DNA of 40,824 nt from Candidatus Halobeggiatoa sp. HSG11 (lineage in GTDB: Bacteria; Pseudomonadota; Gammaproteobacteria; Beggiatoales; Beggiatoaceae), in the NCBI GenBank assembly GCA_030378105.1, contig JAUCGL010000023.1, positions 1-40,824 of the forward strand, in the 5' to 3' direction. This document shows, one piece after another, positions 2,970 through 25,930 of this stretch; within the stretch, counting starts at the first letter, position 1; each line of letters opens with the position of its first letter. The translations under genes and the position numbers were made by a program. Below the pieces are notes generated by a model, which ran no database searches, had not been told where the DNA came from, and saw only the letters and a list, made by a program, of their open reading frames with translations.

Positions 2970-3002
2970 TTCCCTAGTTCTAACGTCCTCGTTAGTAGGA
3001 AA
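2969..3002. repeat. Fragment of the CCTCGTTGGGAA dispersed repeat
   Basis: TTCCCTAGTTCTAACGTCCT followed by CGTTAGTAGGAA is a degenerate copy of the family described at 496-573. It starts at the stop codon of the Cys-rich gene. Confidence 0.55.
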
Positions 3003-3050
3003 GGTATGGTGGGTAATGATAAGTTACCTACTATATTATATTATTTGATT

Positions 3051-3326: not shown

Positions 3327-3579
3327 TAAATCCCATTTCAGCTTTTAATTCATCTAATGAAACTTTTTTAGTATTTTTATTTTCCCGAATGTCATTAATT
3401 GCCTTTCTAGTTTCTTTATTTGGAAGATTGACTTTAAATGGTAATCCTTGTTGAGCAACAATCATACTGGTAAATATATTAACAGCTTCAGTAAAATTCA
3501 TTCCAAGTTCATCAAGTATTTCTTTGGCTTCTTCAAGTTTAACTGCATCAATGCGTAGACTTGTTTGTACTTTTTGCAT
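3313..3579 (-). CDS. dinJ: DinJ/RelB-family antitoxin
   Basis: This 88-residue protein is a DinJ/RelB antitoxin. It has an N-terminal ribbon-helix-helix DNA-binding segment (K-V-Q-T-S-L-R-I-D, then L-G-M-N-F-T-E-A-V-N-I-F) and a charged C-terminal region that would wrap the toxin. The ATG is preceded by AAGGAG. It is the first gene of a two-gene operon with yafQ. A perfect palindrome upstream (3611-3628) is the probable autoregulatory operator. Confidence 0.9.
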   Translation of the reverse strand: MQKVQTSLRIDAVKLEEAKEILDELGMNFTEAVNIFTSMIVAQQGLPFKVNLPNKETRKAINDIRENKNTKKVSLDELKAEMGFNEKT

Positions 3580-3610
3580 TTTATATTACTCCTTAAATAT
3601 TATATAATTA

Positions 3611-3628
3611 TATACAATTTGTTGTATA
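3611..3628. promoter_or_regulatory. Palindromic operator of the dinJ-yafQ operon
   Basis: TATACAA-TTTG-TTGTATA is a perfect 7-4-7 inverted repeat 32 bp upstream of the dinJ ATG. It overlaps TATAAT-like sequence on the minus strand. DinJ-YafQ complexes repress their own promoter through palindromes, so this is the natural candidate site; binding is inferred. Confidence 0.6.
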
Positions 3629-3989
3629 AATACAATTACATTCAATTTCATTACAAGTTTAAGAATTAAAATATTTTCCCAAAAAAAATCACAAAATATT
3701 ATCAACATTATACCCTTTTTATGAAAATAGGTTTAACTCATAAATCACTTAATTGGAGATTTTTGCTGACAGTACCCATATCTAGTTAAATAATTGATTT
3801 AATAAGAACTGCATTGATTTGTAGGGACTACCTAATATTTTAATATTCTGACAAGAAAATCCATTTACTTAAAGGATAAAGGAAATATTTAAAAGTTGCA
3901 TTAAGGTTTAAATAAAATTAAACTGATAAGAAAATGGACATAATTTTTATTCTTAAATACTTTTTAAACATAGCCTTAAACTTAACAAT
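3629..3989. other. AT-rich intergenic region between dinJ and the pyrE-mutL run
   Basis: No gene, known RNA or clear hairpin is visible. It should contain the promoter of the downstream plus-strand run, but no strong TTGACA/TATAAT pair stands out. Confidence 0.4.
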
Positions 3990-4331
3990 ATGACCACTAA
4001 TCGACAAGATTTTAATAACTGTACTGCTTCAGTGTTACAATTATTATATGAAAAATTTCCCAATGAAGTTGATGTTATGATAGAAGATTTAACTGAAGAT
4101 AAAGAGTTAAACGATAATTATTTTGCAACTATGCGTTTTTTACGTCGTGAAAATTTAATATACTATCAAGAACTGGATTTTAGTAACTTTAAAAGAACTG
4201 TATTGACAGCTAAAGGTTTAAGCATCCTAGATACAACTCCAGATGATATTGACATCAACTTAGCTCAACAGCTCATTAATTCAGATAAAATAGCTATTAT
4301 CGTTCAAAATATAATAAAATTAGCCACTTAA
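3990..4331 (+). CDS. Winged-helix-like hypothetical protein upstream of pyrE
   Basis: This 113-residue soluble protein is of unknown family. The segment with [15 protein letters not shown] followed by R-T-V-L-T-A-K-G-L reads like the recognition helix and wing of a winged helix domain, in which a short hydrophobic strand and L-T-x-K-G-L are common. It ends 4 bp before the pyrE ATG, so it is probably cotranscribed with pyrE-mutL. A regulatory role is a guess. Confidence 0.6.
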
Positions 4332-4335
4332 AACT

Positions 4336-4971
4336 ATGCAAACTTACCAACAAGATTTTTTGGAATTCGCTATCCAACAAAAAGTATTACGTTTTGGAGA
4401 TTTCACTTTGAAATCAGGCCGTATAAGTCCATATTTTTTTAATATTGGATTGTTTAATACCGGTTCTGCTCTTGCTCAACTTGGGCGTTTTTATGCTAAG
4501 GCCATCTGTGCCAATAATACTGATTTTGATATGTTATTTGGCCCTGCTTACAAAGGTATACCAATAGTTACCACAACCGCAATTGCATTATCCGAATATC
4601 ATCAAATGCACGTACCTTATTGTTTTAACCGCAAAGAGGCTAAAGATCATGGTGAAGGGGGGACAGTTGTCGGCAGTCATTTAAGTGGTAAAGTTCTATT
4701 AATTGATGATGTTATAAGTGCTGGAACTGCTATTCGGGAAGCTGTCGAAATAATTAAAGCTAATGGAGCTGAATTAGTTGGAATTGTGGTAGCTTTGAAC
4801 CGTCAAGAGCGTGGCAAGACCAAAATCTCTGCAATTCGAGAAATTGAACAAAATTATGGAATTAAAATAACTAGCATTGTTAATTTAGATGATTTGATGA
4901 GCTTTCTTGATCAATACGATCCCAAAATATTAGCAAAAGTTAAAGAATATCGGTTGCAGTATGGAGAATAA
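4336..4971 (+). CDS. pyrE: Orotate phosphoribosyltransferase
   Basis: PyrE converts orotate and PRPP to orotidine 5'-monophosphate in de novo pyrimidine synthesis. The 211 residues match the usual length of the gammaproteobacterial enzyme. It opens with [24 protein letters not shown], has the F-G-P-A-Y-K-G-I-P loop, and carries the PRPP-binding motif [13 protein letters not shown] with the acidic pair at Asp124-Asp125. The last codons overlap the mutL start by 11 bp, indicating cotranscription. Confidence 0.97.
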
Positions 4972-6772
4972 TATCCCTTCTATTCAGCTACTTCCAACTT
5001 TAATAGCTAATCAAATTGCAGCTGGAGAAGTTGTTGAACGGCCAGCTTCGGTGGTTAAAGAGTTATTGGAGAATAGTTTAGATGCTAAAGCTGATTATAT
5101 TGAAATTGAGATTGAACAGGGTGGAATTGCGTTAATACGGGTACGAGACAATGGTTTTGGGATTCGTAACACTGAGCTATCTGTTGCTTTAAATCGTCAT
5201 TCCACCAGTAAAATAAGAGATTTAGATGATTTGGAACATATTAATAGCCTTGGTTTTCGTGGCGAAGCTTTGGCTAGTATCGCTTCCATTTCTCGACTGA
5301 TATTAAGCTCTCATTTTCACGATGAAGAAAGAGGTTATTGTATTCGTTTGCATAACATAAATACCTCTTTAACTCCAGAACCAGTGGCTCATCCAATAGG
5401 AACTACTGTAGAAATTCGGGATTTATTTTATAATGTTCCAGCTCGGCGAAAATTTTTACGTACAGATAAAACAGAATTTAATCATATAAATGAAACTGTT
5501 AAACGCTTATCATTAAGTCGCTTCGATGTTGGTTTTAAATTGACTCATAACCGCAAATCATTAATGACTTTGAAAGCTGCTTTGACTGAAGAGGAACAGT
5601 TACAAAGGGTTACCATGTTATGTGGTTCTGAATTTATTGAACATGTACTGAAAATTGATAGAGATTCAGGTGAAATAAAATTATCTGGTTGGATAACACA
5701 GCCAACTTATTCTCGCAGTCAACCGGATATGCAGTATTTTTTTGTGAATGGGCGAATTGTACGAGATAAATTGATAAGTCATGCTATACGTCAAGCTTAT
5801 GAAGATGTATTGTATTCAGGCCGTCATCCAAGTTATGTATTGTATTTAAAGATAAATCCCACTGAAATAGATGTCAATGTGCATCCGAACAAAAATGAAG
5901 TACGGTTTATCCAAACTGGTTTAGTCCATGGTTTTTTAGTGGCAACTTTGCAAGATTATTTAGCTACTACTTCTCCTATTAATCCAGATGATTCACAATC
6001 ACAAGATTTACCATCAGAAGCATATCCAGAACCTTATTTTAATAAGCATCCTAATTTTTCCTCAATTCATCCTTCGCCATCTACTAGCCAAATTCATGAA
6101 ACCACTCAATTTTATCAGGCTTTAAAACCTGATTTATCTGGTAATGAATTTGATAATAAGATGGAAACAACTCAAGATGTTGAACCAATTCCGCCTTTAG
6201 GTTATGCTCTGGCTCAATTGCATGGGATTTATATTTTGGCTGAAAATGCTACTGGCTTGGTATTGGTTGATATGCACGCTGCTCATGAACGAATAACTTA
6301 TGAAAAGTTGAAAACTGCTTGGCAGTTGCAGGAGGCAAATGGACAAACTTTGTTAATTCCAATAACAATGACAGTTAGTGAAACGGAGGCAGAACAGGCA
6401 GAGCAGTATTTGGAATTGTTTGAACAGTTGGGTTTTGAAATAAGTCGAGCTGGCCCAGAAGCATTAACTGTGCGTCAGGTCCCAACTTTGTTGATTGATT
6501 CGGATATAGTGAAATTAGTTGGTGATGTGTTGGCGGATTTATCACAGTTCGGAACCAGTTCTCGACTGCAAGAGCATGAATTGGAAATTTTGGCTACTTC
6601 GGCTTGTCATAATTCAGTGCGAGCCAATCGTCATTTGACTGTTAGTGAAATGAATGGTTTGTTGCGAGATATGGAAGTGACTGAACGTAGTAATCAATGT
6701 AATCATGGTCGCCCAACTTGGGTTCAACTGAATTTGAAAGAGTTGGATAATTTGTTTTTGCGTGGTAGGTAA
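4961..6772 (+). CDS. mutL: DNA mismatch repair protein MutL (endonuclease type)
   Basis: MutL couples MutS mismatch recognition to strand removal. The 603 residues begin with a GHKL ATPase domain: Glu34 and Asn38 in [16 protein letters not shown] at 63-68, and G-F-R-G-E-A-L at 98-104. A variable linker spans about 335-415. The C-terminal dimerisation domain has [12 protein letters not shown] starting at Asp437, which fits the nuclease motif D-x-H-A-x2-E-x4-E, plus A-C-H-N-S-V-R at 548 and C-N-H-G-R-P at 580, the other metal-site motifs. It should therefore nick DNA itself, as in bacteria without MutH. It sits between pyrE (overlapping) and an HD-domain gene 7 bp downstream. Confidence 0.97.
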
Positions 6773-6779
6773 GGGGCTA

Positions 6780-7310
6780 ATGAAACAATCAGAAATAAAT
6801 TTTAAAAAACTCTGGAAAATTGTAACTAAAAATAAAGTAAGAATCAATTCACATATTCATGGTCCAGAACATTGGGCGAGAGTGGAACGAAATGGATTGT
6901 ATATATGTGAAAAAAATGGTGCGGATAAAGAAATTATTAAACTATTTGCTCTGTTTCACGATAGTATGAGGTTAAATGATGGTCGTGATATTGAACATGG
7001 ATTACGAGGAGCTGAATATGCAAAATCATTGTTAAACAAAGAGTACGAGTTGGCAGAAGATAAATTTGAATTGTTATATTATGCTTGTCAATATCATTCA
7101 ATACGTAGACCAACTGAGGATAAGACTATTGGTACATGTTGGGATGCTGATAGGTTAGACTTAAGAAGAGTTGGTATTAAGCCCGATGAAAAATATTTAT
7201 ATTCTGATGCTGCTAAAATTGTTGCTAGAGAACAGAAATGGAATGAATTAAATACATTTAAGGTAACTTTTCCCTTAACTTCCTTCTTTAAAAAATGGTG
7301 GAACTTATAG
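6780..7310 (+). CDS. HD-domain protein, probable phosphohydrolase
   Basis: I place the start at ATG 6780 (176 residues) because AAGGGG lies just upstream; an earlier GTG at 6762 would overlap mutL. The HD-type metal ligands are visible: His in H-I-H-G-P-E-H-W, the His-Asp pair in F-A-L-F-H-D-S-M-R, and an Asp in C-W-D-A-D-R-L-D-L. Such proteins act as metal-dependent phosphohydrolases, often on nucleotides; the substrate is unknown. It follows mutL by 7 bp and is likely the last gene of that run. Confidence 0.8.
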   Translation: MKQSEINFKKLWKIVTKNKVRINSHIHGPEHWARVERNGLYICEKNGADKEIIKLFALFHDSMRLNDGRDIEHGLRGAEYAKSLLNKEYELAEDKFELLYYACQYHSIRRPTEDKTIGTCWDADRLDLRRVGIKPDEKYLYSDAAKIVAREQKWNELNTFKVTFPLTSFFKKWWNL

Positions 7311-7399
7311 CACCGTAAGGTGGTAACGTATTTTTGTTGCTTGTAGTACATCATCAAGAGTTTTATGATAAGCATTGTTAATATTTCACCAACTCAGTT

Positions 7400-8902
7400 T
7401 TAAATCTGTCCACAATTCAATTCAGACTGTTCTAACCATAATTGTTGAGCGTGATGTTGAGATAAGTTAAATGCTCGCCAATCTTTCTTGGTTTGTAAAA
7501 CGGGAAGTTTATTCAAAGATGTCCATAATTGACAACGCTGTTTTTCTTCAATATATGGCAAGTTTGCTAATATCGTTGGGACAGCATCGGTACTCAGAGA
7601 ACTTAAATAAGCAGCATCAAAACGTTGTTGAGCTTGTAAACGTGCGAAATTAAACTTAGTTATTTGAGCATCAGGGTTAATGATATGCAATAAAGCTATG
7701 AAAAACATGCCACTTACGATTGCTCCAAAAATAAATTGAGTTCTTTTACCATGTAATACAGTTAAACTGAACCAGACAAATAATATTATTAGCCACAACA
7801 TAAAAATACTGGTATAAAAACGTAGCTCGGTAAATCCATAAACGCTTGTGTATAAATACATTCTATGTGCTGCTGAAGCCGCTATAATCATGGTCATAAT
7901 TATCATTATTACGGATAAAAGCTGGTAAAGCCTTCTTTCAAATTTATTATACGGTTGATATAACCAATGAGTAAAAAGTAATAATATTATTACTAGTAAA
8001 GTTACTGCTACTAGCTGTATGAAACCACGCCGTGCATAATTAGAATAAGTTGGCCCATCTAAAGATTGAATTAAAGCATCTCCACCAAAAAAATAAGTAA
8101 ACTGGATTATAATAAAACTTAAAAACAATAAATTCACGGCTCCTAGTGTAATTCCGGTTTCAATACAACCAAGTCGCCAAATTGGTAAATATAACTTTTC
8201 TACATTTTTGTTAATACTGTTAACAAATATAGTTCCACGCAATATTGCTATAGAAAACCAGCAACATATAATAAATATAGCTCCAAAACGTAACACAGAC
8301 TCTTCGTTTAATTCCCAGTTTAATGAGTTAAAAACAGCTTGTTCAAATCTAGCATCGGAAGCAATGAGTAATAATCCAAAAACTAACAACATTGGTGTAG
8401 TTACCATTAGTCCTCTTAAAATGGAATTTATATTATCACCCCAATGATTTTTAACTTCATTCCAATGTATATCTTCACGTATAAGGTCACGATAACTACT
8501 TATGCCATATTCTATGGATAATAAAAAATCCTGGAATATTTGAGAAATTTCAAGATAACGTAGTTTGGGTCTAGTGGCTGTGTTAAAAGCAAGACTGATT
8601 GTTAACATTAATCCTAAATAACTCAAACTATTAAGTACTAAAGAGTCACGCCAAGTTAAAGCTAAGGCAAAAAATACCCCACTTGCCATTAAAGTATATT
8701 CACGATATCCAACATAAAGATGAGCTAGGTTTCTAACAATTAATATAAAAGCTATAAGCAATAAGCTAAATAGAGTAACATTGATTCCCCAAGCCTTGCT
8801 ATTAAATAAAAATATTCCTGCTACTCCCATTAATAAACTAATTATTAAAATAATCAGGCCAATTACTGTTTGATCGGTTATTTCATTTTTTAAATAGTTC
8901 AT
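7400..8902 (-). CDS. DUF4173-like polytopic membrane protein
   Basis: This 500-residue integral membrane protein has about eleven to twelve hydrophobic helices over residues 15-430 and a soluble C-terminal tail. The segment H-R-M-Y-L-Y-T-S-V-Y-G-F-T-E-L-R-F-Y-T-S is characteristic of the DUF4153/DUF4173 group, in which Y-G-L-T-x-x-R is conserved. Function of the family is unknown. It is convergent with the HD gene and lies downstream of the giant sensor gene, separated by ~130 bp, so it may have its own promoter. No clear ribosome-binding site is visible before the ATG. Confidence 0.75.
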   Translation of the reverse strand: MNYLKNEITDQTVIGLIILIISLLMGVAGIFLFNSKAWGINVTLFSLLLIAFILIVRNLAHLYVGYREYTLMASGVFFALALTWRDSLVLNSLSYLGLMLTISLAFNTATRPKLRYLEISQIFQDFLLSIEYGISSYRDLIREDIHWNEVKNHWGDNINSILRGLMVTTPMLLVFGLLLIASDARFEQAVFNSLNWELNEESVLRFGAIFIICCWFSIAILRGTIFVNSINKNVEKLYLPIWRLGCIETGITLGAVNLLFLSFIIIQFTYFFGGDALIQSLDGPTYSNYARRGFIQLVAVTLLVIILLLFTHWLYQPYNKFERRLYQLLSVIMIIMTMIIAASAAHRMYLYTSVYGFTELRFYTSIFMLWLIILFVWFSLTVLHGKRTQFIFGAIVSGMFFIALLHIINPDAQITKFNFARLQAQQRFDAAYLSSLSTDAVPTILANLPYIEEKQRCQLWTSLNKLPVLQTKKDWRAFNLSQHHAQQLWLEQSELNCGQI

Positions 8903-14971: not shown

Positions 14972-15523
14972 TTAAGCGTCTTGTTCCTCAGACTTAATTT
15001 CTTGTTTATTAAGGAACATTTCTGCTTGTTGAGTACAGCCTTTTTCTTTCATCCACTCTATTTGTTGAGTAATTTTCGATAGTTCGGATGGTATCATGTT
15101 TAAAATCACTGAATAAGTGTTGACACCATTACGGTTACTGAGTCTAATTGAATAGTTAGTTTCAGTTGTTAGTGGTACTTCTTCTATTGGCCAAGGTATA
15201 GTTGTATCAGAAATTTGCCACCGTTTGGTGATTTCCTGTTGAGTTGCAAGATTTTTTACTGTTATAAAGTTTGACCCTTCAGTACGTTTAACTGGAGGTA
15301 ACCATAAAATAACATCTTCAGGATTAGCATAACAAAAAGAATCTATTTTACACATACCCATTGCCCAAATACTAGGTGGAGTACCACAACCCATACCACG
15401 CCTACGAGTATCAAACTTCTCTGCCAACTGAATTGGTTCCTGAGAGTACTGAGTGGATTCAGATGCAGTTGCGTTATTGAAACTAAATAACAAAATAAAT
15501 ATTAATAACATAATATTTTCCAA
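14972..15523 (-). CDS. Secreted protein of unknown function
   Basis: This 183-residue protein has a clear N-terminal signal peptide (M-E-N-I-M-L-L-I-F-I-L-L-F-S-F, cleavage near A-T-A-S). About ten residues after the signal comes I-Q-L-A-E-K-F-D-T-R-R-R, then a Gly/Cys-rich stretch (G-M-G-C-G-T-P, M-C-K-I-D-S-F-C) that could form a disulfide. The middle is probably beta-rich, and the C-terminus is charged and helical. I do not recognise the family. It converges with the small Lys-rich gene that shares the post-signal motif. Confidence 0.7.
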   Translation of the reverse strand: MENIMLLIFILLFSFNNATASESTQYSQEPIQLAEKFDTRRRGMGCGTPPSIWAMGMCKIDSFCYANPEDVILWLPPVKRTEGSNFITVKNLATQQEITKRWQISDTTIPWPIEEVPLTTETNYSIRLSNRNGVNTYSVILNMIPSELSKITQQIEWMKEKGCTQQAEMFLNKQEIKSEEQDA

Positions 15524-15962
15524 GAAATTGTTTTTAATCTGTACTTTAAAATATAGTTTTTCAGATTTTTAATCCTGATGGTTTTAACTGTATAATTAAA
15601 GCATAAATTTAATAGCTATTTGAGTGTACCAACTCATATATAATATTATCATAATATTATTGTTTGAGCTACTTTATTAATTCTCTTATATATCCATAAT
15701 GTTTCTAACCTTAACTAACTGTATGTTATAATTATTATATTATTCCATCCTGTAAATTCAGGCTAATTGTCTGAATCAGAATTCACAGAATTATAGAATT
15801 TCCAGAATTAAAATCCATAAACCAAATTCCCTCGTTCCTAACATCCACGTTGGAAATATTTTCTGCAACGCAGAGCATCCCCAAGAATTCCTATCCCAGA
15901 GGTTGGAAACTAGCAAGTAAATCCAAAAAAATTAGCTTTCCAACTTGTAAACAAGGAAAACC
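15524..15962. other. Intergenic region with two dispersed repeats upstream of hsdR
   Basis: After ~240 bp of AT-rich sequence with no recognisable gene, a TGTCTGAATCAGAATTCACA-type repeat lies at 15769-15815. A diverged copy of the CCTCGTTGGGAA/CTCTGCGGTAT family lies at about 15830-15910. An AAGGAA ribosome-binding site precedes the hsdR ATG. Confidence 0.6.
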
Positions 15963-18284
15963 ATGAATTATTTATCAGAAGCAGATGTTAGAGCTAAATT
16001 TATCACCCCAGCGATTTTACAAGCTGGTTGGGATGAGCAAACTCAGATTGTCCGGGAAAAATACTTTACTGACGGACGTATTGATGTAAGAGGTAATATG
16101 ACTTCTCGGATAGAAGGAAAATTTGCTGATTATATTCTGTATTATAAGCCCAATATACCAGTTGCAATTATTGAAGCCAAAGACACTAAACATAGTCTAA
16201 AATCAGGAATTCAACAAGCCTTAGATTATTCCGATATTCTTGATATACCTTGTGTTTTTAGTAGTAATGGCAGTGGCTTTTATTTTCATGATAAAACTAA
16301 TTTTGATGGACAAATTGAACGAGAATTTAGTTTAAATGAATTTCCTAGCCCAGATGAACTATGGGAAAAATATAAATTATACAAAGGTATAACTACTAAA
16401 GAAGTAGAAACCGTTGCAGCCCAGAATTATTTTATAGATATTTCTGGTCGTAAAGCTCGTTATTATCAGCAAATTGCAATTAATCGAACTGTGGAAGCAG
16501 TGGCCAAAAATCAGCAACGGATTATTTTAGTTATGGCAACCGGAACTGGTAAAACTTATACCGCATTTCAAATTATTTACCGATTGTGGAAAAGTGGCCT
16601 AAAAAAACGAATTCTGTTTTTAGCTGATAGAACAGCGTTAATTGATCAAACTCTCACGGGTGATTTTAAGCATTTTAAAGAAGCTATGACCGTGATCAAA
16701 AATAAGCAAGTGGATACTGCGTATAATATTTATTTGGCTTTATATCAAGGTTTATCAGACAGTAAAACTGAAGATGCGTATAAACAATTTAGTCGTGGCT
16801 TTTTTGATCTGGTTATCATTGATGAGTGCCATCGGGGGAGTGCTAAAGAGGATAGCAAATGGCGAGAAATTTTGGCCTATTTTGACCAAGCAACCCATAT
16901 TGGTTTAACCGCAACTCCAAAGGAAACAAAGAAAATTTCTAATCAAGATTACTTTGGTAAACCAATTTATACCTATTCGCTGAAACAGGGGATTGATGAT
17001 GGTTTTTTAGCTCCGTATAAGGTCATTAAGGTTACATTGGATATTGATGTTGAAGGTTGGCGACCACCGACTGGTTATAAAGATAAAGCTGGTAATTTAG
17101 TTGAAGATCGGATTTATAATCGGCTTGATTTTGATAAAAATATTGTGGTTGAAGAAAGAAGACGGTTAGTTGCTAATAAAATTACTGAATTTTTGCGAAC
17201 TGATCGGTTTGCTAAGTCCATTGTATTTTGTGTTGATATTGAACATGCTGAAGGAATGCGGGCAGCGTTAATTAATGCTAATGCTGATTTAGTGGCTGAA
17301 AATAGTAAATATATCATGCAGATTACCGGTGATAATATGGAAGGTAAACGTGAATTAGATAATTTTATTAATCCAAATGAAGTTTATCCGGTGATTGCCA
17401 CAACTTCAAAATTAATGACTACTGGGATTGATGCTCAAACTTGTAAGTTAATTGTTTTAGATAGCAATATTGCTTCTATGACTGAATTTAAGCAAATTAT
17501 CGGTAGAGGTACACGAGTTAATGAAGAGCATGGTAAACGCTATTTTACAATTATGGATTTTAGAAATGTTACTAATCTGTTTGCTGATCCAGAATTTGAT
17601 GGAGAACCAGTTGTAGTTAAAGATTTTACAGAAAATGATGATTTATCTAGTTTTACAGAAGAATTTGAAATACATGAAGAAAAAGCTCCGTATTCAGTTG
17701 AAGATGATGATATAGAAAAGCGTAAAAAAATAGTTGTTAATGGTATATTAGTTACGGTTATTAATGAACGAGTACAATATTTAGATGCTGATGGTAAATT
17801 AATTACTGAAGATTTTAAGGATTATACTAAAAATAATGTTTGTAAAAATTATGCTACTTTGAAAGATTTTTTGCGTAGTTGGGATATTGCTGATAAAAAA
17901 GCTGCAATTATTCAGGAATTGGAAACCAAAGGAGTATTTTTTGATTTATTACAAGAAGAAGTGGGTAAGGAGTTTGATCCATTTGATTTAATTTGTCATG
18001 TTGCTTATGAACAGCCGCCATTGACTCGTAAGGAGCGAGTTAAACAGGTGAAAAAACGTCATTATTTTGCTAAATATAATGAATCAGCTCAAGCGGTTAT
18101 TAATAGTTTGCTGGAAAAATATATGAATGATGATTTAACCACGATAGAAAATATGGAAGTTTTGAAACTTGAGCCATTAAATCAACATGGTTCACCGTTG
18201 GAGATTATTAAGTTATTTGGTGGTAAGAAAAAATATTTGCAGGTTATAGCGGAGATTGAGCAGGAATTGTATAAGGTGGCTTAA
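15963..18284 (+). CDS. hsdR: Type I restriction enzyme, R (endonuclease/translocase) subunit
   Basis: HsdR translocates and cuts unmethylated DNA in complex with HsdM and HsdS. In 773 residues it has the N-terminal nuclease fold, Asp56 in F-A-D-Y and E-A-K at 71-73 (a PD-(D/E)xK site). Then comes Walker A A-T-G-T-G-K-T near 192-198, D-E-C-H starting at 287, T-A-T-P, and a helicase C domain with Q-I-I-G-R-G-T-R. The C-terminal part resembles the EcoEI R-subunit domain. The start is supported by AAGGAA nine bases upstream. The partner hsdM lies 1.8 kb downstream, with hipBA and two dispersed repeats in between, so the R gene is split from M and S. Confidence 0.96.
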   Translation: MNYLSEADVRAKFITPAILQAGWDEQTQIVREKYFTDGRIDVRGNMTSRIEGKFADYILYYKPNIPVAIIEAKDTKHSLKSGIQQALDYSDILDIPCVFSSNGSGFYFHDKTNFDGQIEREFSLNEFPSPDELWEKYKLYKGITTKEVETVAAQNYFIDISGRKARYYQQIAINRTVEAVAKNQQRIILVMATGTGKTYTAFQIIYRLWKSGLKKRILFLADRTALIDQTLTGDFKHFKEAMTVIKNKQVDTAYNIYLALYQGLSDSKTEDAYKQFSRGFFDLVIIDECHRGSAKEDSKWREILAYFDQATHIGLTATPKETKKISNQDYFGKPIYTYSLKQGIDDGFLAPYKVIKVTLDIDVEGWRPPTGYKDKAGNLVEDRIYNRLDFDKNIVVEERRRLVANKITEFLRTDRFAKSIVFCVDIEHAEGMRAALINANADLVAENSKYIMQITGDNMEGKRELDNFINPNEVYPVIATTSKLMTTGIDAQTCKLIVLDSNIASMTEFKQIIGRGTRVNEEHGKRYFTIMDFRNVTNLFADPEFDGEPVVVKDFTENDDLSSFTEEFEIHEEKAPYSVEDDDIEKRKKIVVNGILVTVINERVQYLDADGKLITEDFKDYTKNNVCKNYATLKDFLRSWDIADKKAAIIQELETKGVFFDLLQEEVGKEFDPFDLICHVAYEQPPLTRKERVKQVKKRHYFAKYNESAQAVINSLLEKYMNDDLTTIENMEVLKLEPLNQHGSPLEIIKLFGGKKKYLQVIAEIEQELYKVA

Positions 18285-18285
18285 A

Positions 18286-18343
18286 AGGAATACCGCAGAG
18301 CGGTATGGTAAGAATTCCTAACGAGGACGTTGGGAACTAGGTA
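18286..18343 (-). repeat. Dispersed repeat, left flank of hipBA
   Basis: This copy of the CCTCGTTGGGAA family is in reverse orientation (GGAATACCGCAGAGCGGTAT...GTTGGGAACTAGGTAT). It is matched in the same orientation by 20012-20070, with roughly nine mismatches over 58 bp by eye. The two copies bracket the hipBA genes. Confidence 0.75.
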
Positions 18344-18439
18344 TATTTCTAGGTGACTAGATAATAGATTTTTGACAAAATTCAAAATGGATACTATAAT
18401 ATTCATTATTATTTTTTTTGAAAAGAATAGTATTCATTA

Positions 18440-18748
18440 ATGACAGAACGAAGACAAGCAATCATTTTTCCTCGACAGCAAAATATTCTTAAAAATTTGG
18501 GGGAAAATATCAAATTAGCACGTAAAAGACGCACATTAACACAGCAACAAATTTCAGAACGGACTGGCCTTAGTCGAGTTACCATTCGTAAAATTGAAAC
18601 TGGCGATGCTGGTGTTTCTATTGGACATTATTTAGTTGTTTTGTCTGTATTAAATTTAGCTAATGATTTAACTTTGGTTGCTAAGGATGATGAGTTTGGT
18701 CGGCGGCTTCAGGATGCAAAATTATTAGCTGGTCGAACCAAAAAATAA
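18440..18748 (+). CDS. hipB: HipB-type antitoxin (XRE helix-turn-helix)
   Basis: This 102-residue protein carries an XRE-type helix-turn-helix at about 25-75: L-G-E-N-I-K-L-A-R-K-R-R, then T-Q-Q-Q-I-S-E-R-T-G-L-S-R-V-T-I-R-K-I-E-T-G. It is immediately followed by hipA (ATG 1 bp after its stop), the standard HipBA arrangement, in which HipB neutralises HipA and represses the operon. Its position inside a type I restriction locus is unusual. Confidence 0.9.
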   Translation: MTERRQAIIFPRQQNILKNLGENIKLARKRRTLTQQQISERTGLSRVTIRKIETGDAGVSIGHYLVVLSVLNLANDLTLVAKDDEFGRRLQDAKLLAGRTKK

Positions 18749-18749
18749 T

Positions 18750-20000
18750 ATGGAAACAAATGTCTGGGTTTATGCAAATTGGAGTTTTCCTGATGCTAAG
18801 GGTTTGCAACAAGCATTTTTAGTTGGAAAATTGACTTCTTCACTGATACGGAATAAAGAATCATTCAGCTTTGACTATTCACCAGAATGGTTAAATTCTC
18901 CCTATAAATTATCCATTGATCCTGAATTACAATTATTTTCTGGTCGTCAATTCAGTGATGAAAATAAAAATTTTCGGATTTTTCTTGATTCTTGTCCTGA
19001 TCGTTGGGGACGGTTATTAATGAAACGTCGAGAAGCTGTACTAGCTCATGAGGAACAACGTAAACCCAAATTATTGAATGAAATTGATTATTTGCTTGGT
19101 GTTCATGATCAGTATCGGATGGGAGGATTACGTTTTAAGCTTGAGCCATCTGGGCCTTTTTTAGACAATAATGAGTGGTTTGCTGCACCACCAATGAGTA
19201 ATTTACATGAATTAGAATATGCAGTTACTCAAATTGAAGGTGATCATTCAAATGATGAAGAGTATAAAAAATGGTTATTTATGCTTATGTCTCCCGGTTC
19301 ATCACTGGGTGGAGCTAGACCAAAAGCTTCTGTGATTAATGATGATGGTTCTTTGTGGATTGCTAAATTCCCTAATCGATTTGATGATTACGATGTAGGT
19401 GCATGGGAATATGTACTTTATCAATTGGCATTAGATGCTGGAATTAATATGGCAGAATCAAGGATAATGCGTTTTAAGCATCACCATATTTTTTTAACCA
19501 AACGTTTTGATAGAGACAAAAAAAAGCGTTTACATTTTACTTCTGCTATGACCCAACTTGGTTATTATGATAGTGATTATGAAGCTAGTTATTTGGAGCT
19601 TGCCGAGTTTCTCAGCAACAAAGGTGGACAGACAAAACTTGATCTTGAACAGTTGTGGCGGCGGATTATTTTTAACATTGCTGTCTCTAATACCGATGAT
19701 CATTTGCGTAATCATGGTTTTATTTTGGCTAAATCAGGTTGGCTGTTGTCACCAGCTTATGATTTGAATCCGGTGGTATCTGCACATGGATTACATCTCA
19801 ATATAACAGATAATGACAATAGTCTTGATTTTGATTTAGCTATGGAAGTTATTGACTTTTTTCAGATAAAATCACCATTGGCAAAAAGAATATTAATAGA
19901 AGTAAAAAAAACTGTTAGTAATTGGTCAGCAAAAGCAACAAATATTGGAATTAGTAGAAGTGAGCAAGAGCGTATGGAACCGGCGTTTCAATATAGGTGA
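18750..20000 (+). CDS. hipA: HipA-family serine/threonine kinase toxin
   Basis: HipA kinases phosphorylate a translation component (glutamyl-tRNA synthetase in E. coli) and cause growth arrest. The 416 residues have the G-G-A-R-P-K-A loop at 187-193, the catalytic N-T-D-D-H-L-R-N segment at 314-321 (Asp316, Asn321) and metal-binding A-Y-D-L-N-P with Asp338, so the kinase looks intact. The hipB gene is directly upstream. The pair lies between hsdR and hsdM and is flanked by direct dispersed repeats at 18286-18343 and 20012-20070, suggesting it is a cassette. The target is not deducible. Confidence 0.93.
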   Translation: METNVWVYANWSFPDAKGLQQAFLVGKLTSSLIRNKESFSFDYSPEWLNSPYKLSIDPELQLFSGRQFSDENKNFRIFLDSCPDRWGRLLMKRREAVLAHEEQRKPKLLNEIDYLLGVHDQYRMGGLRFKLEPSGPFLDNNEWFAAPPMSNLHELEYAVTQIEGDHSNDEEYKKWLFMLMSPGSSLGGARPKASVINDDGSLWIAKFPNRFDDYDVGAWEYVLYQLALDAGINMAESRIMRFKHHHIFLTKRFDRDKKKRLHFTSAMTQLGYYDSDYEASYLELAEFLSNKGGQTKLDLEQLWRRIIFNIAVSNTDDHLRNHGFILAKSGWLLSPAYDLNPVVSAHGLHLNITDNDNSLDFDLAMEVIDFFQIKSPLAKRILIEVKKTVSNWSAKATNIGISRSEQERMEPAFQYR

Positions 20001-20011
20001 TATAATTTAAA

Positions 20012-20070
20012 GAGGAATACCATAGAGCGGTTTGGTAGGAATTCTCAACGGGGATGTTGGGAGCTAGGTA
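20012..20070 (-). repeat. Dispersed repeat, right flank of hipBA
   Basis: This is the same family and orientation as 18286-18343. It is followed at 20083-20097 by AGACCTGACAGGTCT, half of the palindrome also found at the end of the CRISPR array. Both lie just upstream of hsdM. Confidence 0.75.
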
Positions 20071-20114
20071 TCGCAAGAAACCAGACCTGACAGGTCTTAA
20101 TCAAGGAATTAAAA

Positions 20115-21533
20115 ATGAGTAATATCAATGCAGTAATTACTAATATTAGAAATATCATGCGGCAGGATCGGGGGATTTCTGGCGATGCTCAACGGTTGGA
20201 GCAGTTGGGCTGGATGTTATTTCTTAAAATTATAGATGATAAGGATCAGGAGTTAGAGTTGCTGAAGGATGATTATGTTTCGGTGATTCCTGATGATTTA
20301 CAATGGCGGAGTTGGGCGGCAGATAAAGAAGGTATTACCGGTGAGGAGTTAATTAAGTTTGTGGAAGCTGATTTGTTTCCGACTTTGAGGAAATTGACTG
20401 AAACTAATTTTGAGCAATTAGCTAAGATAGTTCAAGAAGTTTTTGATGGCAATAATAATTATATGAAATCCGGTTATGAAATGCGGAAGGTTATCAATAA
20501 GCTGAATGAGATTGATTTTAATAAGTCGAAGGATAAACAGGTGTTTGGGGAGATTTATGAGCGGATTTTGACTGAATTGCGGGATGCTGGAAATAAGGGG
20601 GAATATTATACGCCTCGGGCTATTACTAAGTTTATGACGCAAATGACTAATCCAAAGTTGAAAGATAAGGTATTAGACCCAGCTTGTGGGACTGGTGGTT
20701 TTTTGACGGCTGCGATTGATCATGTTAGGGGTAAATATGTTAAGACTGTGAAGCATGAGCAAATATTGCAGGAAAGTATTTTTGGTTGGGAGTTGAAGCC
20801 GGTGGCTTATGTGTTGGGGCTGACTAATTTGATTTTGCATGATATTGATGTGCCTGATTATCATTATATTGATAGTTTGAAGACGGAGTATAATGGGATT
20901 AAGAATAAGGATCGGGTTGAGGTGATTTTGGCTAATCCGCCGTTTGGTGCGAGTGTTGCGGATGGGGTTGAGAGTAATTTTCCAGCTAGTTTTCGGTGTA
21001 AGGAAAGTGCGGATTTGTTTGTGGTGTTGATGATGCAGTTGTTGAAAGAGAATGGGCGGGCTGCGATTGTGTTGCCGGATGGTTCGATAACTGGGGATGG
21101 GGTGAAGGCTAGGATTCGGGAGCGGTTGTTGACTTCTTGTAATTTGCATACGATTGTAAGGTTGCCACAGACTGCGTTTTTTCCGGCTGCGGTGAGTACG
21201 AATTTGTTGTTTTTTGAGAAGGGTAAGCCGACTGAGGAGGTTTGGTTTTATCAGCATAAGTTGCCGGATGGTCAGAAGAGTTATTCTAAGACTAAGCCGA
21301 TTCGGTTTGAGGAGTTTGAGCCGTTGGTTGCTTGGTGGGGTGATCGGAAGGAGTCGGATTTGGCTTGGAAGCTTAGGGTTGAGGATTTGGTGAATTGGGA
21401 TTTGGATATAAAGAATCCGCATGTTGAGGAGGAGGAACATGAGTATAGTTCGGTGGAATTGTTGGGTATGTTGCATGATTCTTTTAGGGAGAGTGATAAG
21501 ATTTTGGGTCAGTTGAAGAAGGGGTTGAAGTGA
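20115..21533 (+). CDS. hsdM: Type I restriction-modification DNA methyltransferase (M subunit)
   Basis: HsdM makes N6-methyladenine at the site chosen by HsdS. The 472 residues include the N-terminal HsdM domain, the AdoMet-binding D-P-A-C-G-T-G-G-F starting at Asp188 and the catalytic N-P-P-F-G at 274-278. An AAGGAA lies upstream of the ATG. The TGA overlaps the hsdS ATG by one base, so the two are translationally coupled. The second half (about 20600-21530) is strikingly G/T-rich on the coding strand, with TTG, GGG, CGG and GTG codons, unlike hsdS or hipA next to it, which produces a long meaningless reading frame on the opposite strand. Confidence 0.97.
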   Translation: MSNINAVITNIRNIMRQDRGISGDAQRLEQLGWMLFLKIIDDKDQELELLKDDYVSVIPDDLQWRSWAADKEGITGEELIKFVEADLFPTLRKLTETNFEQLAKIVQEVFDGNNNYMKSGYEMRKVINKLNEIDFNKSKDKQVFGEIYERILTELRDAGNKGEYYTPRAITKFMTQMTNPKLKDKVLDPACGTGGFLTAAIDHVRGKYVKTVKHEQILQESIFGWELKPVAYVLGLTNLILHDIDVPDYHYIDSLKTEYNGIKNKDRVEVILANPPFGASVADGVESNFPASFRCKESADLFVVLMMQLLKENGRAAIVLPDGSITGDGVKARIRERLLTSCNLHTIVRLPQTAFFPAAVSTNLLFFEKGKPTEEVWFYQHKLPDGQKSYSKTKPIRFEEFEPLVAWWGDRKESDLAWKLRVEDLVNWDLDIKNPHVEEEEHEYSSVELLGMLHDSFRESDKILGQLKKGLK

Positions 21534-22873
21534 TGAGTGAGTGGAAAAAAGTTAAAATCGGGGATATTTCTGAATATAAAAAGGAATTTATTGTTATTGA
21601 TGATGATATTGAATATAAAAGATGTCGAGTACAATTACATCAAAGAGGAATCGTATTACGAGATAAAATAAATGGTTCTGCTATTAAAACAAAAAAACAA
21701 AGATTGTGTAAATCAGGTGATTTTATTGTTGCTGAAATGGATGCTAAATTTGGTGGTTACGGAATTATACCTGATAATTTACATGATGCAATTGTAAGTA
21801 GTCATTATTACTTATTTAAATTAGAAAAAACAAAAATTTCAATAGATTACATGAATGCTTTGTTAGAAACAAATATTATACAATCACAGATAAAAGCAAG
21901 AGGAACAACTAATTATTCATCTATTAGGCCAAAAAATGTTTTAAATTATGAAATACCTCTACCTAATATGAACACACAGTTGAAAATAGTACATCTATTT
22001 AATCAACATAAAAAAACACATATATCTTTATCCTCAGAAATAACCAACCAACAAACCCTACTAAAAAAACTACATCAAGCCATTTTACAAGAAGCTATTC
22101 AAGGTAAATTAACAGTTGATTGGCGTAAGAAAAATCCTGATGTTGAACCAGCTTCTGAACTACTCAAACGCATTCAAGCTGAAAAGGAAACTTTAATTGC
22201 TGAGAAGAAAATCAAAAAGCAAAAACCTTTGCCTCCGATTAAAGCTGAAGAAATTCCTTTTGGATTGCCGAAAGGGTGGGTTTGGTGTAGATTGGGGGAA
22301 TTAGTTGAATCTTATCAAAATGGAATATCAAAACGTGGTGGTGGTAATGGTGTTGACATCGTTGTCTTGCGACTAGCTGATATAAAAAACTATTCAATAT
22401 ATTTTGATAATACTCGTAGTTTAACTTTAGACACAAAGGAACTTGATAAATTTAAAATTGAAGATGACGATATTCTTGTGACAAGAGTCAATGGGAGTGT
22501 GGATATTGTTGGAAACTTCAACTATTGTAATAATATATCATTAAAAAATATTACTTATTGCGATCATTTAATCAGAATGAGAGTATTTTTTAAGGAAATT
22601 ATTGCAAGTTATCTTTTTTTTGTCGAGAAGACTTTCTTAATCCGTGAGCAAGTCAAAAGTAAATTTAAAACAACAGCAGGACAAAAAACAATTAATCAAG
22701 GACATCTTTCTAACTTTTTTATTCCACTACCCCCACTCCCAGAACAAAAAGCCATAGTAGCCAAAGTAGAAAAACTCCTTGCCCACTGTGACCAACTAGA
22801 ACAACAAATCAACCAATCCCAAACTAACTCCCAACAACTTATGCAAGCTGTACTGAGAGAAGCATTTGAATAA
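21533..22873 (+). CDS. hsdS: Type I restriction-modification specificity subunit
   Basis: HsdS recognises the bipartite DNA target for both methylation and cleavage. With the ATG at 21533 it has 446 residues and two target-recognition domains (about 1-155 and 240-395). Each is followed by a conserved helical spacer: L-L-K-K-L-H-Q-A-I-L-Q-E-A-I-Q-G-K-L in the middle and P-L-P-P-L-P-E-Q-K-A-I-V then L-L-x-H-C-D-Q-L-E-Q-Q-I at the end. The first recognition domain is notably A-rich compared with the rest, consistent with domain exchange. It overlaps the hsdM stop (TGATG). Confidence 0.95.
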   Translation: MSEWKKVKIGDISEYKKEFIVIDDDIEYKRCRVQLHQRGIVLRDKINGSAIKTKKQRLCKSGDFIVAEMDAKFGGYGIIPDNLHDAIVSSHYYLFKLEKTKISIDYMNALLETNIIQSQIKARGTTNYSSIRPKNVLNYEIPLPNMNTQLKIVHLFNQHKKTHISLSSEITNQQTLLKKLHQAILQEAIQGKLTVDWRKKNPDVEPASELLKRIQAEKETLIAEKKIKKQKPLPPIKAEEIPFGLPKGWVWCRLGELVESYQNGISKRGGGNGVDIVVLRLADIKNYSIYFDNTRSLTLDTKELDKFKIEDDDILVTRVNGSVDIVGNFNYCNNISLKNITYCDHLIRMRVFFKEIIASYLFFVEKTFLIREQVKSKFKTTAGQKTINQGHLSNFFIPLPPLPEQKAIVAKVEKLLAHCDQLEQQINQSQTNSQQLMQAVLREAFE

Positions 22874-22930
22874 CTGTCAGAATCAGGATTAACAGGATGG
22901 AACAGAATTAGCTTGTGATTTTATCCTGAA
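22874..22930. repeat. Dispersed repeat, TGTCAGAATCAGGATT family
   Basis: It begins in the hsdS stop region with CTGTCAGAATCAGGATTAAC and ends near ATCCTGAAAATCC. Relatives are at 955-1060 and 15769-15815. Confidence 0.6.
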
Positions 22931-22935
22931 AATCC

Positions 22936-23025
22936 GGTAGTCCTCCAATATGTAGTGTTAAACCTGATAGGTATTTGAGACCTAGCAGGTTTTTTGGAGT
23001 CATCACTACTTTATGGAGGACTACC
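22936..23025 (+). mobile_element. MITE-like element, TAGTCCT family, copy 2 (uninterrupted)
   Basis: The ends GGTAGTCCTCCAATATGTAG and CACTACTTTATGGAGGACTA (then CC) are inverted repeats of about 22 bp. Inside is a smaller palindrome, AACCTGATAGGT...ACCTAGCAGGTT. It sits at the end of a decayed secreted-protein gene, whose frame runs right up to it. Confidence 0.8.
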
Positions 23026-24217
23026 AATTTCTCTACCAGCAGAAATTGCACCTTCGCTCAATCCAGTTATCTGCAACAGATAATCATCACCACCAAAGAT
23101 AACAACGTCTTCGTCAGTAGTGATTGTAGTGTTGCCTTAAATTTCTATCGTTTCTGGTTCGACATAAACAGAATTACCTTTTAAACGTGCATTTTGGATT
23201 ATAGCACCATCAACCAGTAGATTTAGGTCTCCTCCTCCTTCTAATTTTAATATTTCCTCCAACAGATATGCTTTTTTGAAAGGTCTTTGCATTGCTACTA
23301 TCAATAATATATGTAGAACCATTTCCAGCTTTGATAGTACCTTCGTTAAGTACAGTTCCACCAAGAACACCAGCAGCTTTTTCCATCAACCTGATAGACG
23401 AACCAGAATTTGCAGACGCATTTGCACCTATTACATTACCTTCCTTAAAGTTTGCAAAGACATCTGTAAATTCTATTTTGAGATCACCATTAACATCAGA
23501 ACTTAACGTGCCATAATTGCATAACGATTTAACTTTCACCGTCATCCCAGAAGAAACTGTAATATCACCATAGACAAAAACTCTATTAGTATCGAAATCA
23601 TTAGCATTAACAGGCCATTTATTTGAGCTTGATGGATATGTTTTATCACATGTTAATGGATTTGGTGGAGTTGCTATACCACCACAAATGATTTTACGAA
23701 CTGTAGCATCATTTATATCACATGCGTCTTCTACAACACTTGGTATTGGTGGAGCAGTAGTAAAATTGGGAAATGGAAAGTCTATTCCAGAAGCAGGAAT
23801 GGAAACACCACTAACAGTCCAAGCAATATTATTCCCTGAAACGGTAATCTCTAATGCATCAGTTTCATTTGCCCATTGAACTTGAGTAGCTTTCAATACT
23901 GCTGAGTCTACAAACTGCCAAACTTTATAATCACCATCCGGCAAAATTTTAGAATAATTACCACCTATAACTGGTGTTGAAAATGGTGATAAACCTGGAC
24001 TGTTTAAAGGCTGAAAGACAATAAAGCCATCTACATCGTATTTAGGCTCTAAGTCCACATTTTCTGGTTGTGTAGCTATTGATCCGTCTATAAATCTGAC
24101 ACCTTGTAACGTGGCAGCCAAACTACTAGCCTGCACAATATTTCCTGCCAACAAAGCAAGACCAACAGCCTTAGCTAAAATAGCTTTTTGATGTTTTTTA
24201 GTATAAAATGGATACAT
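23026..24217 (-). pseudogene. Decayed secreted beta-helix-like protein gene
   Basis: From ATG 24217 (GGAG upstream) the frame gives 335 residues with a signal peptide (about 1-34, V-Q-A-S-S-L-A) and a C-terminal part rich in G-x-I-x-V and N-x-G-T-I beta-helix-like turns. That frame ends at 23210 in a tail of consecutive Arg. In the -1/+1 frame the protein-like reading continues as L-E-G-G-G-D-L-N-L-L-V-D-G to V-E-P-E-T-I-E-I, then TAA, then in the same frame G-N-T-T-I-T-T-D-E-D-V-V-I-F-G-G-D-D up to the MITE at 23025. A frameshift near 23245, a nonsense codon and a repeat insertion therefore break the gene. The family is unknown; a surface or secreted role is inferred from the signal peptide. 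Confidence 0.75.
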
Positions 24218-24361
24218 TTTATTTACTACTCCTCTTTAAAGATAAGTAAATTTAGAAAGTATAGAAGCTACGGATTTAGAGAGTCTGTAGCCTCTTCTTC
24301 CAATATTTATTGAGAAATACTTTATGCTCACAGTATTAAATACAATCAACAATTTGTCAAA

Positions 24362-24643
24362 CTAAATTACCCCCCCCCTAACCTCATCAATTAAGACATA
24401 ACAACTAGGCAAATTACCCTTCTCCTTACTACTACGAAGTTTAACTCGAATATACTTCTTCTCCTTCAATTTTTTTAAGGCTCGTTGTACCGTAGAACGA
24501 GTGTAACCTGATATTTTAACAAGAGTTTTAATACTGACAATACACCGGTTTCTTGTCGATAACTTTCGCAAGCTATCCAAAACATCCTGTAAAGAACCTG
24601 ACAAATCAGAAATAAGAGAAGTATTTTTTACTTGAATTGGCAT
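24362..24643 (-). CDS. Small winged-helix DNA-binding protein
   Basis: This 93-residue protein has a helix-turn-helix at about 40-75: I-V-S-I-K-T-L-V-K-I-S-G-Y-T-R-S-T-V-Q-R-A-L, followed by L-K-E-K-K-Y-I-R-V-K as the wing. GAGG lies upstream of the ATG. The last codons contain a run of nine G (plus-strand C run at 24370-24378), in which loss of one base would create an immediate TAA. Similar winged helices occur in replication initiators and in transcription regulators. A possible short ORF ends 15 bp upstream, and iteron-like repeats lie ~350 bp upstream. Confidence 0.65.
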   Translation of the reverse strand: MPIQVKNTSLISDLSGSLQDVLDSLRKLSTRNRCIVSIKTLVKISGYTRSTVQRALKKLKEKKYIRVKLRSSKEKGNLPSCYVLIDEVRGGVI

Positions 24644-24658
24644 AGAAATAGCCTCATT

Positions 24659-24823
24659 TTATTTGTTAGAAGTACCAATTTTTTGTTGACTCATAATAGT
24701 GATAATTATTATTAAATTGAAATCTTTAGACGGGTCAATCAATTTAATTAAGTAGTTGGCATTAATTTGGCGCTTCACTTCCCAATCAGCAAAATCCAAA
24801 CGTAGTTTTTCATTAAATTGAAT
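24659..24823 (-). other. Possible small ORF or gene remnant upstream of the winged-helix gene
   Basis: The frame between TAA 24824-24826 and TAA 24659-24661 encodes 54 residues, including E-K-L-R-L-D-F-A-D-W-E-V-K-R-Q-I-N-A-N-Y and ending in S-Q-Q-K-I-G-T-S-N-K. It has protein-like composition but no early ATG; TTG or GTG would be needed. It is either a short cotranscribed ORF or the 3' end of a lost gene. Family unrecognised. Confidence 0.3.
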
Positions 24824-24987
24824 TTATATATGGTAGATAAAACATAGATTATTACTTTAAAATTAAAAATTTGGTCTTTTCAATTAAAGTTTAATTTATA
24901 TCAGCATTATTGCTATACTGTACAAATATTATGCCAGTTTTTAACATATTGATATATAATGATTTGATAAAAACGGCTCAAAAAAAT

Positions 24988-25111
24988 GTGCTGAAAATCA
25001 GCAGGTCGTAAAAAATAAAAATCGTGGAACGCCGCAGTTTTGGTCTGTATGTTATTGATTTTAAACAACGTGCTGAAAATCAACAGGTAGGTGCTGAAAA
25101 TCAGCAGGTCG
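24988..25111. repeat. Three iteron-like direct repeats of ~20 bp
   Basis: GTGCTGAAAATCAGCAGGTC occurs at 24988, in variant form (GTGCTGAAAATCAACAGGTA) at 25070, and again at 25091. The last two are adjacent with a 21-bp period. Each contains the palindrome GCTGA-AAA-TCAGC (degenerate in the middle copy). They lie upstream of the minus-strand winged-helix gene and could be protein-binding sites. Confidence 0.7.
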
Positions 25112-25184
25112 GGCAATTATTTGATTTAAAATAAAAAGTAACCAACGCTTAAATCATGCCAATTCCATAACATATTGATTTATA

Positions 25185-25327
25185 TCTCGTTCCCACATGC
25201 CATGTGGTAACACCATAACACCGCGCCGGCAGTGCGTATCAAATAGCATAATCTCAATATATCAGTTAAGATCATAGATAAACTCGCACCGCTGGTGCAT
25301 TCCCACATAGCATGTGAGAACGAAATA
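25185..25327. repeat. Inverted dispersed repeat (CTCGTTCCCACATG family)
   Basis: The left part TCTCGTTCCCACATGCCATG...GTGCG and the right part CGCACCGCTGGTGCATTCCC...GAGAACGA are reverse complements. The GTGCG/CGCACCGC sub-block also occurs in the composite repeat at 2327-2508. Nothing codes here. Confidence 0.65.
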
Positions 25328-25390
25328 CAAACTAAGTAGGGGATTAGGTGTTTTGGTTGCCAACCCAACTAACATTTATCCTTAATTTAT

Positions 25391-25915
25391 TTAATGCCGA
25401 GAATTGAAATTTTCTGGAATAGCCACTAATTTTAATGAACCTAACTGGCGTTCTAACGGAAAATAAGCATATTTATACTCAAACTTAGCAATTGTCCAAT
25501 CACCTCGTTGCTTAATAAGAGTCACCAATGCCGCAAACTTACCCCCCTGAAAATTGCCACTTACTTGATAACAAACAACAACATGTAGCCATGAAGACTC
25601 CGAATGGAACAGACCACCATAAGCACCATGATAATTTAACAACTTGCCTAATCGAGTAAAAACAACATTAATTTTTTGTAATTTAGTGTTAGTCAATTTC
25701 TTTTGCATTCTATTACTTGTATAATTCAAAAACTCAGTTTCATCCCACTCAGAAAATAGATTTAACATTGCTACATTAACAAACTCTCTTGTTTCTGCGT
25801 GCATTTGTCTTAAACTGAAAATACTATATCCAACCCCTGCTACAATTGACACAATTAATAATATAGTAAAACCAGTTTTGCTTGAAAAAAAATTATGAAA
25901 GTGCATAATGTCCAA
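25391..25915 (-). CDS. Membrane-anchored hypothetical protein divergent from ycjX
   Basis: This protein of up to 174 residues has a single N-terminal membrane helix (about 15-35, T-I-L-L-I-V-S-I-V-A-G-V-G-Y) and a soluble domain on the far side. The domain ends in a beta-rich part, Q-V-S-G-N-F-Q-G-G-K-F-A-A-L then W-T-I-A-K-F-E-Y, reminiscent of NTF2-like or DUF4019-type lipoprotein domains; that resemblance is weak. A second ATG nine bases in is equally possible. The start codons of this gene and ycjX are 15 bp apart, so they share a very short divergent control region. Confidence 0.65.
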   Translation of the reverse strand: MDIMHFHNFFSSKTGFTILLIVSIVAGVGYSIFSLRQMHAETREFVNVAMLNLFSEWDETEFLNYTSNRMQKKLTNTKLQKINVVFTRLGKLLNYHGAYGGLFHSESSWLHVVVCYQVSGNFQGGKFAALVTLIKQRGDWTIAKFEYKYAYFPLERQLGSLKLVAIPENFNSRH

Positions 25916-25930
25916 AAATAATATAACAAT

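Follow-up and report, generated by a model that had tools for sequence, protein, structure and literature searches.

The window (the whole stretch of DNA analysed, 40,824 nucleotides, contig C143 of a 5.2-Mb source genome in 326 contigs) carries a toxin-antitoxin module, hipBA, inside one type I restriction system, in the interval between hsdR and hsdM. Our main reading, to which we assign a probability of roughly 0.6, is that hipBA was gained in one piece, bounded on the right by the repeat at 20012-20069, with members of a dispersed repeat family as the most likely sites of the recombination or rearrangement involved; it would serve to keep the locus, possibly with a part in back-up defence.

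The restriction locus and its hipBA module

The features of the locus, together with the further repeat copies of the window, were as follows:

15683..25399, no strand assigned, region with the hsd-hipBA order, lying between conserved left and right flanks of congeners
15963..18284, + strand, hsdR, 773 aa, type I restriction subunit of the EcoAI/FtnUII family
18284..18342, + strand, left repeat copy, 62.6 bits, directly 3' of the hsdR stop codon
18372..18400, + strand, predicted sigma-70-type promoter, TTGACA-17-TATAAT, 12/12 consensus by sequence match
18440..18748, + strand, hipB, 102 aa, helix-turn-helix (HTH) antitoxin, HTH_3 match
18750..20000, + strand, hipA, 416 aa, HipA-family kinase toxin, HipA_C match at 1.5e-51
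20012..20069, + strand, right repeat copy, 50.2 bits, somewhat decayed
20115..21533, + strand, hsdM, 472 aa, N6 adenine methyltransferase subunit, type I family match
21530..22873, + strand, hsdS, 447 aa, specificity subunit, type I family match
520-578, 2268-2325 and 2519-2561, repeat copies near a CRISPR-like array

The gene order was hsdR-hipB-hipA-hsdM-hsdS, and all five reading frames were open and shared one direction. The reading frames and the family matches agreed that hsdR and hsdM are split by a complete HipB-HipA system, as the first-pass annotation had described. HsdR matched the NCBIfam EcoAI/FtnUII model NF046051 with 1130.5 bits over 768 of 768 positions. With full-length HsdR, HsdM and HsdS encoded together, the locus is by sequence a complete type IB (EcoAI-family) system, and its activity is predicted.

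Comparison with congeners placed the locus between two conserved flanks. The left-flank homology ended at 15515-15682 and the right-flank homology began at 25400-25921, on different contigs. Among the five genomes of the genus, some of which are incomplete, the hsd-hipBA order of 15683..25399 was seen in the source genome alone. Pieces of this region matched elsewhere, among them the hipA 3' end and the open reading frame at 24362-24643. Two more dispersed repeat families with many genome copies were seen on its right side, at 22936-23027 and 25183-25327.

Within the module, hipB lay directly 5' of hipA in the same direction, with a 1-nt gap. HipB scored 46.5 bits against the couple_hipB model, under the cut-off of 71.65, and the N-terminal HipA domain of HipA scored slightly below its cut-off. 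In a 25-sequence alignment, residues S185, G187, G188, A189, P191, K192, D316, N321 and D338 of HipA were invariant. We take the roles of the loop and catalytic residues from the alignment with E. coli HipA and from general knowledge of HipA, and on this assignment the kinase signature is complete, with its Ser/Gly-rich loop and its catalytic and Mg-binding residues. An inactive HipA kinase, which the first-pass annotation had named as evidence against its proposal, is thus not what the sequence indicates. The predicted HipA model (pLDDT 89.4) matched E. coli HipA (3dnu) over its whole length (Z 29.1, rmsd 3.2, 349 aligned residues) and also S. oneidensis HipA over its whole length (Z 28.3). 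The promoter match upstream of hipB lay between the left repeat and hipB, the window containing just one other site of this kind, and candidate operator-like inverted repeats were seen by eye 5' of hipB both here and in relatives. From these sequence features, hipBA looks like a working operon with its own transcription. No Rfam match at gathering scores was found in the hsd-hipBA locus.

hsdR-hsdM intervals and hipBA surroundings in other genomes

Of the order's 42 genomes, four (G041, G014, G002 and G030) had a close hsdR-hsdM pair of the same type at one place. These four hsd loci, with 47-62% protein identity, belonged to other genera and were not an orthologous site. Their hsdR-hsdM gaps measured ~27, ~6, ~701 and ~232 nt, respectively, and none of the four contained hipBA or a copy of the dispersed ~58-bp repeat. 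The G002 gap held an IS200-like transposase gene (L054:3791-4243), which suggests that the gap tolerates insertions. The content of the gap varies: it holds this gene in G002, while G030 has tandem repeats there and the window has hipBA. Divergent hsd genes were left out of the comparison, namely those of G012 (HsdR and HsdM on different contigs) and G029 (hsdR, hsdS and hsdM together), as were a second G041 set, G019 and G001 (HsdM only) and the source genome's C296 and C25. No hsd locus of this type was found in congeners, G012 having only divergent HsdR and HsdM matches. The first-pass annotation had suggested looking among relatives for a site that lacks hipBA and bears a single repeat; gaps without hipBA were found, in these four genomes of other genera, but a gap with a single repeat was not among them.

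We then considered the surroundings of hipA itself. The seven nearest HipA relatives among 84,980 species genomes were 60-83% identical over their best segments, and a HipB with 59-65% identity preceded hipA in 6 of the 7. No match to HsdR, HsdM or HsdS of the locus was detected in these seven hipA loci (4.8-13.2 kb each). A broader set of 40 other hipA loci comprised 39 loci, which account for 40 of 45 listed matches, and the record of Pseudomaricurvus alkylphenolicus, one of the seven nearest relatives, with flanks of at most ~10 kb (several contigs were short). With type I queries covering some of the type I families, hsd genes were close to hipA in 2 of the 40 (L186 and L166), a weak HsdR-like match (24%) in L175 being left out, and hipBA lay between hsdR and hsdM in none. 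The order in P. alkylphenolicus was hsdM, hsdS, DUF4268, Abi_2, hsdR, function-unassigned reading frames and hipBA, so that hipBA stood outside (3' of) the hsdMSR locus, whose HsdR belongs to another family. In G669, hipBA lay ~4 kb from hsdR, the sole type I gene detected there. A broadly conserved hsdR-hipBA-hsdM order without the repeats, which would have spoken against the original proposal, was not seen in the loci examined.

A conserved partnership between hsd genes and hipBA was rejected after a scan of 396 Pseudomonadota genomes. Among the matches listed (at least 150 for HipA_C, at least 150 for HsdM_N and 110 for EcoEI_R_C), hipA lay within 10 kb of an hsd match only here, and the next hipA-hsd distances were 10.7, 11.9 and 12.0 kb. 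For 9 plasmid regions (from 9 of 777 matching records, with an incomplete gene table), the annotation showed no type I genes within a distance of at most 8 kb from hipBA; one of these regions had two hipBA pairs next to a DNA methyltransferase. No published description of hipBA between hsdR and hsdM was found in the open-licence PMC literature. Because none of the 4 related gaps and none of the 40 hipA loci show hipBA there, we conclude from these sequence comparisons that hipBA was probably gained at the hsdR-hsdM gap. A phage origin of hipBA was rejected, as 50,697 phage records contained no close HipA (5 weak matches). A pattern scan of viral contigs detected no relative, and two repeat patterns had no exact counterpart there.

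The flanking repeats and the probable gain of hipBA

The first-pass annotation had placed copies of a ~58-bp repeat in the same orientation at both ends of hipBA, and the repeat model and BLASTN agreed on this. The model was built from 34 copies, both hipBA-flanking copies among them; in an independent check by BLASTN with a congener copy, 18280-18343 was matched at 91% (E 7e-19) and the other match extended through 20070. The presence of the flanking repeats is not chance. A search for ungapped repeats did not group the two copies into one direct family. The left copy folded as two hairpins (z -4.47), while the right copy kept the second hairpin and had lost the first (z -1.30). We take the core of the second hairpin, CCCAAC...GTTGGG, to resemble attC boxes; an integron attC was rejected, as an attC would form one long stem and the left copy folds into two separate hairpins. 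An assembly error at the flanking repeats is unlikely, since the copies are short and differ at ~19% of positions.

The repeat belongs to a dispersed family. At least 42 matches were found in the 5.2-Mb genome (40 of 88 candidates scored), 5 copies lay in the window, and the family matched 13 of the 42 genomes of the order. Intergenic repeats of other kinds in Beggiatoaceae are the subject of a published study (PMC4679880). Among 48 copies, which came from loci picked for containing copies, 44 lay outside open reading frames of at least 70 aa and 4 lay within frames of 70-92 aa; of the 37 copies situated between genes of one direction, 22 were oriented like those genes. Neighbouring pairs within 4 kb in the loci examined numbered 7 on the same strand (the hipBA pair included) and 5 on opposite strands, compared with 0.7-2.9 same-strand pairs expected (all pairs, for 44-88 randomly placed copies); the copies therefore cluster, and the pair is not peculiar to hipBA. 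The two hipBA-flanking copies were 81% alike, whereas the median likeness among 41 long copies of the family, those of congeners counted in, was 88%, and 80% of copy pairs were at least as similar as they were. On this likeness, a fresh duplication of the flanking repeats was rejected.

Same-strand pairs were also seen around other genes. On C127, copies stood on both sides of hsdM in another type I locus without hipBA, and on C194 a pair bracketed a ribonucleotide reductase gene. With such pairs elsewhere and with their unremarkable likeness, the two hipBA-flanking copies as such define no cassette; the pairing is weak evidence for one and is not specific to hipBA. The C127 locus (L075:3900-11815) is a second type I locus of the source genome, with the order hsdR-hsdS-repeat-hsdM-repeat. 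In the window, a CRISPR-like array of eleven repeats (1445-2197) was likewise bracketed by same-strand family copies. No cas genes were found among the five Pfam-tested reading frames of 2631-8902, which corresponded to a phosphoribosyltransferase, MutL, an HD domain, DUF4153 and one frame without a Pfam match.

The aspect that deserves following is homology that ends at the edge of the repeat. Congener G011 shared with the window the last 125 hipA residues, at 83% identity, together with the 3' spacer and the adjoining repeat, with 88% identity over 448 columns for the hipA 3' end and repeat. The homology stopped 1 bp past the repeat, and the 5' part of hipA was absent, being cut inside the gene. 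Neither flank of the G011 fragment matched the hsd-hipBA locus of the window, and the gene 5' of the fragment had its counterpart in contig C293 of the source genome. Between the two hipA sequences, dN was 0.07 and dS was 0.28 over 122 codons. A second case was found within the source genome, where a DUF559 nuclease-like gene and its repeat were duplicated (L062:357-1634 on C6 and L065:2415-3671 on C158). This block showed 86.5% identity over 1258 columns, upstream region included, with unrelated sequence on both sides, and its end coincided with the repeat's 3' edge (offset 0); it was the only further gene-sized block containing the repeat in an all-versus-all comparison of 40 repeat-bearing loci. 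In both blocks the gene lay on the 5' side of the repeat and the block ended at +1 or 0 bp, while the opposite ends had no repeat copy and were not alike. Ten shorter non-self blocks with a copy (130-222 columns, mostly nested intergenic repeats) were divided: in 5 the end lay 1-12 bp beyond the 3' edge, and the other 5 extended 88-159 bp beyond it. The repeat thus seems to mark joints between gene units in the source genome, and these edge junctions are most simply read as traces of recombination or breakage at dispersed copies. The repeat is the more transferable lead, since its outer edge terminates two distinct gene units within a single genus.

These results bear in different ways on the proposal that hipBA is a cassette gained by recombination between the repeats. 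Its first part, the gain, was supported by the 4 related gaps and by the G011 context, while an exchange from repeat to repeat is possible. Such recombination is supported by the two gene-sized blocks, hipA and DUF559, ending within 1 bp of the outer edge of the repeat. Against it stand the same-strand pairs around other genes, the ordinary likeness of the two hipBA copies, the repeat at one end only of the DUF559 unit and the overrun of 88-159 bp in half of the shorter blocks. As the DUF559 unit is one-ended and the G011 hipA is cut inside the gene, a simple two-repeat exchange does not explain both. The gene-sized blocks are also few (n=2), and the repeat pair at hipBA may be coincidental. 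The repeats could indeed be bystanders, hipBA having come another way and two-hairpin copies having inserted independently on either side, which we consider unlikely though far from negligible. The mainly intergenic position of the copies (44 of 48) would fit, as would the pairs around the C127 hsdM, the ribonucleotide reductase gene and the CRISPR-like array, and the two hipBA copies are not sister copies; with 22 of 37 copies in gene orientation, two alike-oriented copies are therefore unremarkable. However, the junction between hipA and the repeat is common to a congener in which everything past the repeat differs, and the DUF559 case shows the same edge pattern to the base.

We see a slight chance that mobile gene units carry the repeat as their own terminal element and were moved by an enzyme such as a recombinase of the IS200/IS605 or integron type, as opposed to general recombination. 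The two hairpins of the element, the position of both gene-sized blocks 5' of the repeat with ends at its 3' edge (+1 and 0) and the IS200-like transposase gene in the equivalent gap of G002 are consistent with it, but the subset of window reading frames tested contained no transposase or integrase, the other ends of the hipA and DUF559 units are not alike, and several copies adjoin ordinary genes. Very improbable is the reading of hipBA as an old functional part of the restriction system, as PrrC is in EcoprrI. The module is intact, co-directional and tightly packed, and hipBA does occur near type I genes in P. alkylphenolicus and G669; yet it was found in none of the order's 4 related loci, stands outside hsdMSR with its other HsdR family in the former, is ~4 kb from a lone hsdR in the latter, and has no other examined case between hsdR and hsdM. 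The arrival of hipBA as a unit ending at the right repeat, 20012-20069, is the reading that we prefer, and recombination or rearrangement at dispersed intergenic two-hairpin repeats would most likely be the route.

Proposed function and comparison with known systems

In the mechanism we propose, HipB would keep HipA inactive and would repress the shared promoter. If the locus were lost or the antitoxin supply failed, for example during host shut-down by a phage, the HipA kinase would be set free, would phosphorylate a host target and would stop growth. In studied HipA proteins, this target is a tRNA synthetase. Such growth arrest would favour cells that retain the locus and could serve as a back-up defence. 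By analogy, we favour locus keeping with possible back-up defence, and these roles are plausible because published precedents exist for island keeping (CN-32 HipAB) and for nested phage-defence modules.

The window module resembles the HipBA family of E. coli in its HTH antitoxin gene directly 5' of a two-domain HipA kinase and in the whole-length fold match, but its HipA has 17-21% structure-aligned identity to solved HipA proteins. In Shewanella putrefaciens CN-32, hipBA of the island GI21/CGI48 lies close to hsdM, hsdS and hsdR (PMC8978831), and HipAB was reported to help island retention after excision (PMC12016545). The CN-32 hipBA lies past hsdR, beside the right attachment site, whereas that of the window lies between hsdR and hsdM, and the CN-32 island encodes an integrase (PMC8978831). 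DarTG2 is embedded in a type I locus of EPEC, within an island active against phages, at a site termed a potential recombination hotspot; it is likewise a toxin-antitoxin module nested in an hsd locus, but it differs in its toxin, in its position in the hsdS-hsdR gap and in its regulator RptR (PMC12255303). PrrC of EcoprrI is a growth-stopping protein encoded in a type I operon, which acts upon infection by restriction-resistant phage; it is held by the restriction complex itself, whereas the window hipBA has its own antitoxin gene and a predicted promoter (PMC3874165). The HipA-like protein HipAD is a further published case of phage defence. Type I loci with a toxin-antitoxin module nested in them or lying next to them are already known (PMC12255303, PMC8978831), and the present locus adds hipBA in the hsdR-hsdM gap to such genes.

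A more far-reaching reading, to which we give a small chance, combines a two-hairpin intergenic repeat that, in this bacterial group, forms the mobile right-hand end of defence-gene units with a placement of hsdM and hsdS behind the HipB-controlled promoter. The latter was considered because the best promoter match in the hipA-hsdM interval reached at most 9/12 and no forward terminator-like site was found there. If the repeat were such a mobile end, cassette-like units would spread defence genes (hipBA and the DUF559 nuclease-like gene); if the promoter arrangement held, growth arrest and DNA methylation would both depend on how much antitoxin is present. On plasmid pGLOV01 of Trichlorobacter lovleyi (L117), two tandem hipBA pairs were observed directly after a large DNA methyltransferase gene.
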